A stretch of DNA of 35,257 nucleotides. Origin: an uncultured Verrucomicrobiota bacterium (GTDB lineage Bacteria > Verrucomicrobiota > Verrucomicrobiia > Opitutales > Opitutaceae). Shown here piece after piece: positions 30,064 through 35,257 of this stretch; position 1 is the stretch's first letter, and every line of letters begins with the position of its first letter. The notes beneath the pieces were generated by a model. The model made no database searches and was not told where the DNA came from. It saw only the letters and a list, made by a program, of their open reading frames with translations. The stretch covers positions 1-35,257 of the forward strand of contig CAIRBK010000016.1 of assembly GCA_903876795.1 (NCBI GenBank), in the 5' to 3' direction. The translations under genes and the position numbers were made by a program.

Positions 30064-31032
30064 TCACCCTTGGCGCACCAGATTGATGACTTCGCCGGGC
30101 GACAGGTTGGCCGCGCGATGTTCAACCTCGGCCTGATGCCGGCCAAACAGCGAACGTCCATCCGCGAGCAGCACCCGGTAGGTGTCCCGCAGCACCGCCG
30201 TCTCCATCTTCCGGCCTCCCGCGTAGTAACGCAGCGCGAGGCGCCCGATCGCGTAAGTCGCCGCAAACGTGACCGCAGCCCCCGTGCCGGTCCCGGCGGC
30301 CGCCCGTCCGAGCCCGCCCAGCACACCCTTGCCCAAGAGGCCGCCGGCCAGCCCGCCGATCAGTTTTCGCGCATAGCCTTCGACCGCTTGCGAAGCCAGC
30401 CCGGCACCCGCCGTCGCGAGAAAATCTCGGATGTGACCGCGATCCAGCGGATACCCGTGCGCCTTGCCCACGTTATACACCATCCGCATCTGCACCGGCA
30501 CGATGGCCATGGTTGCAAAGGACTGCGGCAGCAACTCCAGCGCGGCCGTCAAAATCGCGTGGTTCAAAATCGATTTCTCCAGCGCGGGAACATCCACCTG
30601 CGCCAGCACGGCACCGCCCGGCGCGCGACCGGGCGCGGGTGCCGCCTCCGCCGGAGGAAGAGCCTGCGCCAAGTCCTCCGCAGTTTTCTCACTGGTCCGC
30701 GCCGACGGCGATTCGCCGAATACGCCGCGCAGCCCCGCCAGAAACGTGATTTCGGCGGCATTCGGCGGCCCGTCGGTCTCGCACACGCCCAAGGCCATCT
30801 CATACGCGAGCAAACGCACTTCCGGCCGGGTCAGCTCCGCAGCCAACGTCTCCACGGGATACTTTCCGGCCAAGACGTCCTGATAAACCACCCAAGGGTT
30901 GAACGCGTCCGTCGCGAAGCCTTCGGTGATGCGTTTGAGCGCGGCGCGTTCGGCATCGGATTTGATGCCATCGGCAAGGGCAGCGTGAAGGAGCAGGGCA
31001 AAAAGGGCGCGTTGTTCGGCGGGTGTGGTCAT
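30064..31032 (-). CDS. TerB-like and DUF697 domain membrane protein
   Basis: A 322-residue protein with two domains. Residues 1-105 (AEQRALFALLLHAALADGIKSDAERAALKRITEGF, then NAAEITFLAGLRGVFG) form a helical TerB-like domain with the acidic D/E positions expected in tellurite-resistance relatives. An Ala/Pro-rich linker follows to about residue 145. The C-terminal domain (about 165-290) reads ILTAALELLPQSFATMAIVPVQMRMVYNVGKAHG and Gly/Ala-rich hydrophobic helices, matching DUF697, normally attached to GTPases. The ATG at 31032 is used; the frame upstream is the shadow of the divergent gene. No GTPase domain is present, so a scaffold or envelope-stress role is only a guess. Confidence 0.78.
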   Translation of the reverse strand: MTTPAEQRALFALLLHAALADGIKSDAERAALKRITEGFATDAFNPWVVYQDVLAGKYPVETLAAELTRPEVRLLAYEMALGVCETDGPPNAAEITFLAGLRGVFGESPSARTSEKTAEDLAQALPPAEAAPAPGRAPGGAVLAQVDVPALEKSILNHAILTAALELLPQSFATMAIVPVQMRMVYNVGKAHGYPLDRGHIRDFLATAGAGLASQAVEGYARKLIGGLAGGLLGKGVLGGLGRAAAGTGTGAAVTFAATYAIGRLALRYYAGGRKMETAVLRDTYRVLLADGRSLFGRHQAEVEHRAANLSPGEVINLVRQG

Positions 31033-31159: not shown

Positions 31160-31675
31160 ATGAGCAGCGGCCCTCGTTTTTTCCTTACCGAAGACGGCCG
31201 GCGTACCGGTCCGCACAGCCTCGCCGTGCTCAAACAAAAAGCCGAGCTGGGCGTCATCAAGCCCGACTCCGCCCACGCGCCCGAGGCCGAGCCCGACGCC
31301 TGGGAACCGATCCGTGACTCGTCAGTCCTCCACGAGGAACTCTTCCCGGCCCGCCCAAGTTTCACCTTGGCGCATCGTGCCGTCGAAACGGTCAACACCC
31401 CCGGCGAGCCCCGCCACGCGCCGTCCGTGGACGAGATGCTACGGGCCAACCTCGCCCGTCAGCAAGCCGCGGAAGGCGAGCTGCTCAAGCCGATGCCACC
31501 CCGCTCCAACCGCCGTCGAAACGACTACCTGATCCTGGCGGCGATGATCAACGGACTCGTCGTGGTTAATCTTATCATCGGCCGCCCTTGGTATGACCCG
31601 TTCCTGATCGGCTTTTTCGTCATGGGCAACGTGAGCCTCGCCTGGGTCCTCTTCGGCGTGATGGATCGTTACTGA
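31160..31675 (+). CDS. GYF_2-like domain membrane protein
   Basis: A 171-residue protein with an N-terminal GYF_2/DUF4339-type segment: FFLTEDGRRTGPHSLAVLKQKAELGVIKPDSAHAPEAEPDAWEPIRD (residues 6-52, with the GP and W positions of that fold). A charged linker follows, then two C-terminal transmembrane helices near 122-140 (YLILAAMINGLVVVNLII) and 147-166 (FLIGFFVMGNVSLAWVLFGV). GYF_2 domains bind proline-rich partners in membrane-associated proteins. The ATG at 31160 gives the domain; an upstream start at 31124 would be Arg-rich. It is divergent from the TerB-like gene, and the 127-base gap probably holds both promoters. Function unknown. Confidence 0.75.
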   Translation: MSSGPRFFLTEDGRRTGPHSLAVLKQKAELGVIKPDSAHAPEAEPDAWEPIRDSSVLHEELFPARPSFTLAHRAVETVNTPGEPRHAPSVDEMLRANLARQQAAEGELLKPMPPRSNRRRNDYLILAAMINGLVVVNLIIGRPWYDPFLIGFFVMGNVSLAWVLFGVMDRY

Positions 31676-31765
31676 GCACACTGCGGTCGCACGACGCCAA
31701 ACCCATGCGCGCAACCTCATGCTCGCCCTTGCACTGAACACGCCGCCTGCCACAAACGTTTGCAC

Positions 31766-32251
31766 ATGCCGCTGCCCGCCGAGATCGCCGCTCTGGTAGA
31801 AACTTTCGCCGCCAACGGGGCCAACTATATCGCCTCCGGTTTCAAGGAGGCGCAGGTCCGCCAGCAGTTCATCGATCCGCTCTACGCCGCCCTCGGCTGG
31901 GATGTCGCCAACACCACCGGCTACGTCGAGGCCTACAAGGAGGTCATGCACCAGGACGCCCCCAAGATCGGCTGCGAGACCAAGGCCCCCGACTACTCCT
32001 TCCGCATCGGCGGCAACCGCAAGTTTTTCGTCGAGGCCAAAAAACCTTCCGTCGTACCCAAGGATAACCCCGAGCCCGCTTACCAACTCCGCCGCTACTC
32101 GTGGTCGGCCAAGCTCCCTCTCGGAATTCTCAACGATTTCCAGGAATTCGCTATCTACTACACCTGTGTAAAGCCCGCCGCCGCCGATAATGCCGTGGTC
32201 GCACGCCTCTTCGACCACCGCGACGACAAACCTTCGCGCCATCTCAGTTAA
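31766..32251 (+). pseudogene. N-terminal nuclease fragment of a type IIG-like restriction enzyme
   Basis: A 161-residue frame equals the first domain of a type IIG/Eco57I-like restriction-methylation protein. It reads FKEAQVRQQFIDPLYAALGWDVANTTGYVEAYKEVMHQDAPKIGCETKAPDYSFRIGGNRKFFVEAKKPS (with AxQVRxxFIxPLFxALGW and PD-(D/E)xK residues Asp76, Glu90, Lys92). YQLRRYSWSAKLPLGILNDFQEFAIY follows. In full-length relatives this is followed by a linker and a large methyltransferase/target-recognition part. Here the frame ends ARLFDHRDDKPSRHLS and stops, with no continuation in the other frames. The next gene begins 19 bases later. A stand-alone nuclease protein is possible, but truncation is simpler. 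Confidence 0.75.
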
Positions 32252-32269
32252 ATCCGCCACAGCTCGCCC

Positions 32270-33232
32270 ATGCCCAAAGCCATCAACGCCGACAAACCAC
32301 GCCTCTGGAAATCGGATGTCGCCGCATCGGTCGATCAGTTCAACCAGTGGTTTCTTCGCTTCGCGCCTGAAACCTTTCGTGCCACCCGTCGCATCACCAC
32401 CGAAAAGGTCCACGCTGCGCTCCTAGCCACCCGCGATCTCCAGGATCTCACGCCAGCCGCCCTCCGCGCCTCCCCAGCTGCTCTCTCCACCCTGCGCATG
32501 TGTTCAGCTCCGCCGCTCGCGGTGGATCGACTCATTGGCCTTTCGGGTGCCAGCAAATCACTCGTGAGCTCCATGGAAGAAGGTAAACTTGCCGTTCGCA
32601 TGAACTCTGCCGCGCTCGACGACAACCTCGTTAAACTCTGCTCCATCCTCACCCGTCTCCTGGATCGCGACATTTTTCCGTGGCTCGACGCCTCGACACT
32701 CCGGCCCGCCACTGCCGCTGAGCGTGATCGCGCCGCCACCATCGTTGCCGACCGTCTCTGCAGCGCCGTCGCCAACCCCATTGTCCGCAACGCCCAGGAA
32801 CGCCGTCAGCTCGAGCTCATAGGCGCATGGCTCGATGCCCGCGGCTACCGCCCGCAAGCACTGCCCATCGGCACCGCCCTCACCGACATGCCATCCGGCA
32901 CCTACGCCTTTCGCCTCAATGTTTCCGTTGGCCGCACCCGCCGTGTAAACATCCCCATCGACGCCGTAATCCAGCCCTTCCGCCCCGCCAAAACCCGTCT
33001 CCCTGTCCTCATCGAAGCCAAATCCGCCGGCGATTTCACCAACACCAACAAACGTCGCAAAGAAGAGGCCATGAAGGTCCACCAACTGCGCGCCGAACTC
33101 GGCTCCTCCGTCCGCTTCCTCCTCTTTCTCTGCGGCTACTTCGGTAGCGACTATCTCGGATACGAAGCCGCCGAAGGCATCGACTGGATATGGGAACATC
33201 GCATCGACGACCTCGCCAAACTCGGTTTGTAA
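32270..33232 (+). CDS. XamI-like type II restriction endonuclease
   Basis: A 320-residue protein I assign to the XamI restriction endonuclease family. The reasons are the opening MPKAINADKPRLWKSDVAAS, VDQFNQWFLRFAPETFR and the APPLAVDRLIGLSG helix. Its nuclease core is PD-(D/E)xK-like: Asp231 in IPIDAVIQ, then VLIEAKSAGDFTNTNKRRKEE with Glu249 and Lys251, and a loop of positive charge. XamI recognises GTCGAC. Ten bases separate it from the methyltransferase gene, and it follows a truncated nuclease gene. Start at the ATG 19 bases after that stop. Family assignment is from memory of the N-terminal sequence and its methyltransferase partner. Confidence 0.75.
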   Translation: MPKAINADKPRLWKSDVAASVDQFNQWFLRFAPETFRATRRITTEKVHAALLATRDLQDLTPAALRASPAALSTLRMCSAPPLAVDRLIGLSGASKSLVSSMEEGKLAVRMNSAALDDNLVKLCSILTRLLDRDIFPWLDASTLRPATAAERDRAATIVADRLCSAVANPIVRNAQERRQLELIGAWLDARGYRPQALPIGTALTDMPSGTYAFRLNVSVGRTRRVNIPIDAVIQPFRPAKTRLPVLIEAKSAGDFTNTNKRRKEEAMKVHQLRAELGSSVRFLLFLCGYFGSDYLGYEAAEGIDWIWEHRIDDLAKLGL

Positions 33233-33241
33233 TCAACTCAC

Positions 33242-34843
33242 ATGGTCGCACTCGAACAGCAGCTCCTCGAAACGCGCCGCCAAACCTGGCAACGCGAACT
33301 CGACGCGACCAAATCCGCCGAGGAGCGCAACCGTCTCGGCCAGTTCGCCACTCCCTACCCGCTGGCCGTGCAGATAGCCGCCTATGTCCGGTCCCTGCTT
33401 CCGCCGGCGCACCCGCCTCTCCGCTTCGCCGATCCGTCAGTCGGCTCCGGCAGCTTTTATTCCGCCGCCGCCGAGGTTTTTGGCGCCGACTGCTTCGATC
33501 TCGCCACCGGCATCGAACTCGATCCCGCCTTTGCCGACGCCGCCGAGAACCTCTGGGGCCGCTCCGGCCTGCGCTTGGTGCGTGGTGATTTCACCCGTCT
33601 CATTACCCGCGACGCCTGCCCGCCCGCGCCCAACCTCATCTTGGCCAATCCGCCCTACGTTCGCCACCACCACTTGGATCGCGACGAAAAACTCCGCCTC
33701 CAAGCCATCGTCCTCCAACGCACCGGCCTCAAAACCAGCGGCCTCGCCGGCCTCTACGTTTATTTCCTCCTGCTCGCAACCACTTGGATGGAAAAAGGCG
33801 GTCTCGCCGCCTGGCTCATCCCCTCCGAGTTCATGGACGTGAACTACGGTTCCACCCTCCGCGAATTCCTCTCCACTCGCGTCACCCTCCGCCGCATCCA
33901 CCGCTTCGACCCCGCGGCAGTGCAGTTCGACGACGCCCTCGTTTCCTCCGCCATCGTCGTATTTGAAAACACGACCCCGCCCGCCGCCCACCACGCCGAG
34001 TTCAGCTTTGGCGGCCCGCTCGCCGCCCCCGTGGTCAACGAACCCGTGAGCGCCGCCCGCCTCCGCGCATCCCGCAAATGGTCGGGCTTCCCCCGCCACG
34101 CCACCAACGACCGCCAAATCTCGCGCGACCATGACGACGGCCCCCGCCTCGGTGATTTTTTCCGCATCCAGCGAGGCATAGCCACCGGTGCCAACGACTA
34201 CTTCATCCTACCCCGCGCCGAGGCCCGCCGCCTCGGCCTGCCCGACGCCTGCCTGCGCGCCATCCTGCCCAGCCCGCGTCACCTGCCCGCCACGGTTATC
34301 GAGGCGGAAGCCGATGGCTACCCGCGCATTGAACCCCAACTTTGCCTCATCGACTTCGATATGTCCGAGGAACAAATCGCCGCCCGACACCCCGCGCTCT
34401 GGGCCTACCTGCAAACCGGCGAAGCCGCCGGCGTGCGCGACGGCTACCTCGTCCGCAGTCGTTCCCCTTGGTATAAACAAGAACAACGCAGACCCGCCCC
34501 CTTCCTCTGCACCTACATGGGACGCGGCACTCAGGGCAAAGCCCCTTTTCGCTTCATCTGGAACCGTTCCGCCGCCACAGCCACCAATCTTTATCTTCTG
34601 CTCACGCCCCAAAACGGTCTGGCCAAGATGCTCGCGGCGCACCCCGACCGCGCCGCTTGGCTGCACGCTTGGCTAAACCAAGTCACCGGGGATGAACTCC
34701 GCGGCGTAGGCCGCGTTTACGGTGGCGGCCTCAATAAAATCGAACCCAAGGAACTGGCCCGCATTTGCGCCAAACACCTTCTCGACCAATGGCCTGAAAT
34801 CAGCGCCAACCACGACATGCAGGGAGATCTGTTGTTACAATAA
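33242..34843 (+). CDS. N6-adenine DNA methyltransferase of the restriction-modification pair
   Basis: A 533-residue amino-methyltransferase protecting host DNA from the preceding endonuclease. AdoMet motif I is FADPSVGSGSFYSAAAEVFG (residues 62-81) and the catalytic motif IV is ANPPYVRHHH (Asn136-Tyr139), specifying adenine N6. Before motif I is RLGQFATPYPLAVQIAAYV, the FAT-P start seen in Eco57I/PaeR7I-like enzymes. The C-terminal half (from about residue 240) should be the target-recognition domain, including IQRGIATGANDYFIL and the end motif YGGGLNKIEPKEL. It is complete, with its ATG ten bases after the endonuclease stop, so both are probably co-transcribed. Confidence 0.88.
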   Translation: MVALEQQLLETRRQTWQRELDATKSAEERNRLGQFATPYPLAVQIAAYVRSLLPPAHPPLRFADPSVGSGSFYSAAAEVFGADCFDLATGIELDPAFADAAENLWGRSGLRLVRGDFTRLITRDACPPAPNLILANPPYVRHHHLDRDEKLRLQAIVLQRTGLKTSGLAGLYVYFLLLATTWMEKGGLAAWLIPSEFMDVNYGSTLREFLSTRVTLRRIHRFDPAAVQFDDALVSSAIVVFENTTPPAAHHAEFSFGGPLAAPVVNEPVSAARLRASRKWSGFPRHATNDRQISRDHDDGPRLGDFFRIQRGIATGANDYFILPRAEARRLGLPDACLRAILPSPRHLPATVIEAEADGYPRIEPQLCLIDFDMSEEQIAARHPALWAYLQTGEAAGVRDGYLVRSRSPWYKQEQRRPAPFLCTYMGRGTQGKAPFRFIWNRSAATATNLYLLLTPQNGLAKMLAAHPDRAAWLHAWLNQVTGDELRGVGRVYGGGLNKIEPKELARICAKHLLDQWPEISANHDMQGDLLLQ

Positions 34844-34962: not shown

Positions 34963-35160
34963 ATGAGGCAGCTGCCTGCCGAACTTGGGAAAGAATTGAT
35001 CAACCTGCTTGGTGGATTTTTAAACGATTGAGCTTTGCAGCCAAACGATGTCGAGGCTCTGAGGATTTGGCTTACGCAAGCCCGCGAAGCTTTTTCTGAC
35101 ATGCCCAGCATCGCTGCGCTTCGTGATATCGTGGAATGTGCCTTGCCTATGCTAAGGTAA
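34963..35160 (+). pseudogene. Small gene with an in-frame stop, unknown
   Basis: From ATG at 34963 one frame reads MRQLPAELGKELINLLGGF, LND, stop (TGA at 35029-35031), and continues in frame as ALQPNDVEALRIWLTQAREAF, SDMPSIAALRDIVECALPMLR, then TAA at 35158. Both halves look like amphipathic helices and the same frame stays open across the TGA. This fits a short coding gene with a premature stop. A 69-residue frame overlapping it in another phase (34890-35099) is less protein-like. I cannot name a family. Confidence 0.35.
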
Positions 35161-35257
35161 GCGACTGACCGGACGCACTTTTCTGGACCACCCGGATTGA
35201 GACTCTGAGCGGGTTGATCTGGTGGGTTTCGGTTTTGGGTTGGGCGTGTCGGTTGAA
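35161..35257 (-). mobile_element. Possible insertion sequence end (transposase C-terminus)
   Basis: On the minus strand a frame enters from beyond the window and reads FNRHAQPKTETHQINPLRVS, then IRVVQKSASGQSLTLA and a stop (35149-35151). Composition (Gln/Arg/Thr-rich) resembles the end of a transposase, and CTGGACCACCCGG on the plus strand resembles IS ends. The frame runs into the low-GC stretch. No inverted repeat pair can be checked because the other end lies outside. Weak identification. Confidence 0.3.

Follow-up and report, generated by a model that had tools for sequence, protein, structure and literature searches.

A XamI-type restriction-modification pair behind the probable remnant of a type IIG gene in an uncultured Opitutaceae bacterium

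A seemingly complete pair of XamI-type restriction endonuclease and methyltransferase lies directly behind a type IIG gene that appears to have been cut after its nuclease domain, and in our view it is highly probable that one restriction-modification (R-M) system has here taken over from another, the remaining 5′ piece (hereafter the stump) being most likely silent. The locus belongs to an uncultured Verrucomicrobiota bacterium of the family Opitutaceae (assembly GCA_903876795.1) and was analyzed within a stretch of 35,257 nucleotides from contig C16, referred to as the window. Read in this way, the locus is ordinary defence-gene turnover. It offers a clear case of an R-M system located in what is left of a different one, for which a longer second copy of the older gene in the same genome allows comparison, and it cautions against taking every short nuclease frame beside an R-M pair for a third subunit.

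From the layout and the comparisons below we infer the order of events, the horizontal arrival of the pair, its activity and specificity, and the silence of the stump. The ancestral state would have been a type IIG gene behind the gene at 31160-31675, at the place where relatives carry an E1 dehydrogenase gene. Of 985 codons, about 830 at the 3′ side of this gene would then have disappeared, their place being taken by a complete R-M pair of the XamI type, which would be followed by insertion elements. In this pair, the endonuclease would cut unmodified DNA at its own site, whilst the methyltransferase would protect the host at the same site. Finally, the stump, left without the methyltransferase and target-recognition parts and probably under much weaker purifying selection than before, is most likely without function; it could at best serve as upstream sequence for the operon.

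Organization of the locus

Three open reading frames follow each other on the plus strand, namely the stump (31766-32251, 161 aa, from ATG to TAA), a XamI-family type II restriction endonuclease (32270-33232, 320 aa) and its putative cognate DNA methyltransferase of the Eco57I type (33242-34843, 533 aa), separated by gaps of 18 and 9 bases; in the stump frame, an alternative TTG start is found two codons before the ATG at 31766. These are the frames of the initial annotation, which had regarded the first as only the N-terminal nuclease domain of a type IIG enzyme (with Asp76, Glu90 and Lys92), the other two as a XamI-like endonuclease and its methyltransferase, and the whole as one restriction system in place of most of another. 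The domain searches, together with longer relatives of the stump in its own genome, genus and phylum, bear out this description. Its remark on GC-rich codons in all three genes also holds, with GC3 values of 0.80 for the stump, 0.71 for the endonuclease (slightly lower) and 0.77 for the methyltransferase; the range in five genes that flank them, two of which have approximate starts, is 0.76-0.87.

The gene preceding the stump (31160-31675, plus strand) is conserved in the genus, where an E1 dehydrogenase gene usually follows it; its product may be GYF-like, and it had no match in Pfam, NCBIfam or PHROGs. Its last 52 bases and the 90 intergenic bases that follow (31624-31765, plus strand) form a stretch that, at 94% identity, also precedes a type IIG gene on another contig of the host (C78). 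On the minus strand, a gene with sub-threshold DUF533/TerB similarity (30064-31026) is located between an rpiB gene and this upstream gene, and in five of the eight relatives' loci showing both rpiB and the upstream gene, at most 90 bases separate these two. At the other side of the pair, the last 98 bases of the window (35160-35257, minus strand) run off the contig end and are 90% identical to a sequence from another genus (G420:C95:638-735) in which an rve/rve_3 integrase-core frame ends. Because of this match, the window probably closes with the end of an IS3-like insertion element, the IS3 label being based on the integrase core. Between this element and the methyltransferase gene, positions 34963-35157 hold a short, degenerate frame interrupted by a single TGA, which gave no translated match among the other loci compared.

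The stump and its full-length relatives

The stump matches the PADLOC model REase_MTase_IIG (E 3.6e-39) at positions 9-158 of 1011, as well as Pfam HSDR_N (E 1.2e-8), and no NCBIfam model matches either the stump or the XamI endonuclease. It shares with type IIG enzymes the N-terminal PD-(D/E)xK nuclease domain but differs from them in having neither methyltransferase nor target-recognition domains, since the frame stops at codon 162. The residues Asp76, Glu90, Lys92 and Gln107 are invariant across the 25 aligned relatives (alignment A3). An AlphaFold2 model with a mean pLDDT of 85, which falls to about 60 in the last blocks, combines a confident core with an uncertain end, and predicts that the stump retains a foldable nuclease core. 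The best Foldseek match of this model was the type IIG enzyme DrdV (E 4.6e-4, with a TM of only 0.43-0.47), the likeness to BpuSI being weak; further matches, with modest scores, were an HsdR fragment and a protein with a restriction endonuclease-like fold, and a search of solved structures by sequence gave one match, at E 0.97 only.

The host assembly, a draft of 3.57 Mb in 103 contigs, contains a second type IIG copy on contig C78, which is open for 533 codons up to the contig end and has its own nuclease domain. A genome of the same genus (G006) encodes a complete homologue of 985 aa with the domains HSDR_N (26-135), Eco57I (497-675) and TaqI_C (789-908). In the aligned part, the stump is 78% identical in amino acids to the C78 copy and 81-83% to the G006 protein. 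The initial annotation had suggested looking at the domain border of full-length enzymes, and the border can indeed be placed: the BLASTN match between the window and C78 (528 of 609 columns identical) runs from 31624 to 32231, where the reported match ends, so that the homology stops near codon 155, 38 bases before the XamI start at 32270. The last six or so codons of the stump would be junction sequence. When the G006 protein was compared with the host assembly, only weak matches of 30-33%, in the methyltransferase part, were found besides C78, and the remaining 830 or so codons of the stump's gene are therefore absent from the assembly.

Relatives of the stump occur in 22 of the 387 sampled genomes of the phylum, at 25 places. 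Leaving the stump aside, 22 of the other 24 places align with a type IIG protein over more than 300 aa, one of these longer relatives (G305) carrying an internal deletion. As for the two exceptions, in G143 the match continues to the end of the available sequence, and in G299 it ends after 113 aa, the next frames being without type IIG similarity and with no XamI adjoining. Among 72,556 plasmid records, 33 contain a relative of the stump, and all ten among the matches listed are annotated as N-6 DNA methylase. In these samples, stand-alone fragments of this kind are rare.

The C78 copy (C78 1-1743, L003) is itself a mosaic. Over the first 155 codons it shows 97% identity to the copy in a genome from another genus (G303) and 84% to the stump, and the 142 bases that precede it are 94% identical to those in the window.

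History of the site

In the genus, the E1 dehydrogenase gene is found directly 3′ of the upstream gene in six of eight loci (L026-L031), a count that excludes one locus ending with its contig (L024) and two pieces in G010; of the other two loci, L023 carries the upstream gene twice, the extra copy lying before E1, and L025 has other frames instead. In the host, the E1 gene is located at C83:300, behind a multi-copy repeat of about 140 bases that occurs at ten other places in the genome, eight of which are contig starts. Both contigs end in repeats, and C16 would presumably join C83. Visual inspection of the 300 bases preceding the E1 gene revealed no type IIG remainder. Given the mosaic in C78, type IIG genes may have moved or recombined at this site more than once.

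The insertion-element-like sequence found at the window end and where C83 begins, as well as the draft state of the assembly, leave some room for a different history, in which an IS-mediated or other deletion removed the 3′ portion of the older gene, or the junction is an assembly artefact, and the XamI pair stands there by chance. We consider this unlikely: the stump DNA differs by 14-16% from its three nearest copies and is therefore not a chimaera with one of them, and the 38 bases from the last homologous position to the XamI start are too few for an insertion element.

Selection on the stump

Changes unique to each of four sequences (the stump, C78, G006 and G303) were counted over 155 codons. 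The synonymous and nonsynonymous changes amounted to 19 and 22 in the stump, 3 and 1 in C78, 13 and 3 in G006, and 6 and 0 in G303, which gives a nonsynonymous to synonymous count of 22/19 for the stump against 4/22 for the other three pooled (Fisher p=0.002). With the last seven codons left out (codons 1-148), the contrast is weaker, 17/19 against 4/21 (p=0.015). A count with three sequences and G006 as outgroup gave no difference (22/20 for the stump and 12/14 for C78, p=0.80), the contrast being visible once G303 was added. At 58 conserved columns, compared in the 18 closer of the 25 rows of A3, the stump deviates at six positions, including E63Q and D132Y, compared with none in C78, none in G303 and two in G006; two remoter relatives deviate at 15 and 8. 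Given this excess of nonsynonymous changes over the relatives, decay of the stump is probable, even if the catalytic residues are kept. On the other hand, its nonsynonymous share is lower than the neutral expectation (22/41, p=0.001; 17/36 in codons 1-148, p=9e-5), which fits past constraint and could also reflect a weak present one. The best fit to these counts would be a gene once constrained and then released.

A stand-alone N-terminal PD-(D/E)xK fragment of a type IIG enzyme has been described in Haloferax volcanii, where HVO_A0006 (219 aa) is flanked by transposition genes on an archaeal plasmid (PMC4389544, PMC5867850). This protein resembles the stump as a free nuclease fragment and differs from it in that no XamI pair is mentioned beside it in the relevant passages of those reports. 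It was first thought to affect methylation, with a split enzyme being proposed (PMC4389544); the effect on methylation was reportedly not confirmed in the follow-up (PMC5867850). The stump might be a retained free nuclease domain pairing in trans with either the C78 enzyme or the XamI methyltransferase, as a split or hybrid enzyme, although we hold this to be very improbable. The narrower proposal, that it works as a spare nuclease subunit for the C78 type IIG enzyme in the manner of HVO_A0006, appeals to the presence in the same genome of a type IIG copy whose frame stays open over 533 codons, and is likewise very improbable: C78 carries its own nuclease domain, the stump shows more nonsynonymous change, and a triple deletion including HVO_A0006 is reported to have left the m6A motif unaffected (PMC5867850).

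The XamI pair

The endonuclease matches Pfam RE_XamI (PF09572) over positions 2-256 of 256 (E 8.6e-101, 337 bits with a cut-off of 25). Asp231, Glu249 and Lys251, the presumed PD-(D/E)xK residues, are invariant in the 42 sequences of a second alignment (A4). For this alignment, six of 80 public loci were left out, five with an in-frame stop (L050, L066, L074, L087 and L097) and a short one (L093), every second of the remaining 74 was omitted, and only L033-L036 were taken from the loci of the phylum. The AlphaFold2 model of the endonuclease has a mean pLDDT of 91. A search of solved structures by sequence gave no match, and Foldseek gave none below E 0.001; weak similarities to Can2/Card1 nucleases (TM 0.25-0.30) were discarded. 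The methyltransferase matches Eco57I in Pfam (E 3.8e-11) and MTase_II in PADLOC (E 3.9e-154), and shows DPSVGSGSF followed by NPPY, presumably motifs I and IV in the gamma order of what is probably an N6-adenine enzyme. The pair looks complete and should act as a plain type II system.

The founding XamI member has the site GTCGAC. This hexamer is seen 13 times in the host contigs C16 and C78, where 33.0 are expected, and 11 times in ten relatives' loci in which no XamI was found, where 28.3 are expected. The depletion is equal with and without XamI, and site avoidance is therefore uninformative about the specificity of the pair.

XamI was present in one of the 13 genomes of the genus and in nine of 288 of the phylum, the host included, a patchy distribution that points to a pair probably acquired by horizontal transfer.

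Occurrence of the trio and precedents

Other XamI loci were surveyed with one genome per species, taking the best 80 of at least 506 confirmed candidates, plus eight loci of the phylum (L033-L040). A relative of the window's methyltransferase is present in 85 of these 88; the three misses are L088, where the gene starts at the end of the record, and two distant XamI relatives (L039 and L040). By contrast, neither tblastn nor an HMM built from A3, which did recover both positive controls, found a relative of the stump in any of the 88. Upstream sequence of at least 500 nt was available in 71 of the 80 public loci, the other nine being weak tests; the same applies to L039, where less than 300 nt precede the XamI frame. 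The initial annotation had offered as an alternative a three-gene system, for which stand-alone fragments of the same length would be common beside XamI genes; such fragments are rare, and in this sample of the best 80 of at least 506 candidates and eight phylum loci there is none. A short nuclease serving as a working third subunit of the XamI pair is very unlikely, since neither the common strand with gaps of 18 and 9 bases, nor the kept catalytic residues and confident core model, nor the sub-neutral nonsynonymous share offsets the lack of any stump-like gene in the 88 loci searched, the deviations at six of 58 conserved columns (0, 0 and 2 in the nearest relatives) and the higher nonsynonymous change than in relatives.

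Under the reading we prefer, turnover of one system by another, the pair is a typical XamI-type II system, with both genes, the endonuclease preceding the methyltransferase, the spacing of a few bases seen in most loci and the invariant residues, the sole departure being the stump before it. Its endonuclease is 72-74% identical to relatives, among the best 80 of at least 506 candidates, in metagenome-assembled genomes named Phycisphaerales, Verrucomicrobiaceae and Acidobacteria.

In Campylobacter upsaliensis, CupORF237P is described as one R-M complex inserted into another, and the same source mentions that such an insertion was suggested for Helicobacter pylori (PMC2630997). The H. pylori case is reportedly that of Nobusato et al. 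(2000). These cases share with the present locus one R-M system inside or in place of another; they concern other families, and of the older system nothing but the 5′ end is kept here. As stated in the respective sources, IS-linked movement of R-M genes has been shown in E. coli (PMC3031569), and insertion between genomes has been described for PabI-family R-M pairs (PMC4615327). A literature search found no paper on the stump, XamI and methyltransferase trio, which is not proof of its absence; what is already in print, going by the passages concerned, is the insertion of an R-M system into another (PMC2630997) and the stand-alone type IIG fragment (PMC4389544).

The survey also brought up some variants of the pair. 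The endonuclease and methyltransferase are fused into a single open frame in two of 89 XamI loci (the window, the best 80 of at least 506 candidates and the eight phylum loci), both on the minus strand: L033 (G015:C11, 1-2496; at least 832 aa, checked with Pfam) and L035 (G027:C94, 1-2445; at least 815 aa). The distant XamI relatives of L039 (G244) and L040 (G275) are found without the usual methyltransferase, and a frame adjoining that of L040 presumably encodes a cytosine-5 methyltransferase, to judge by a sequence motif.
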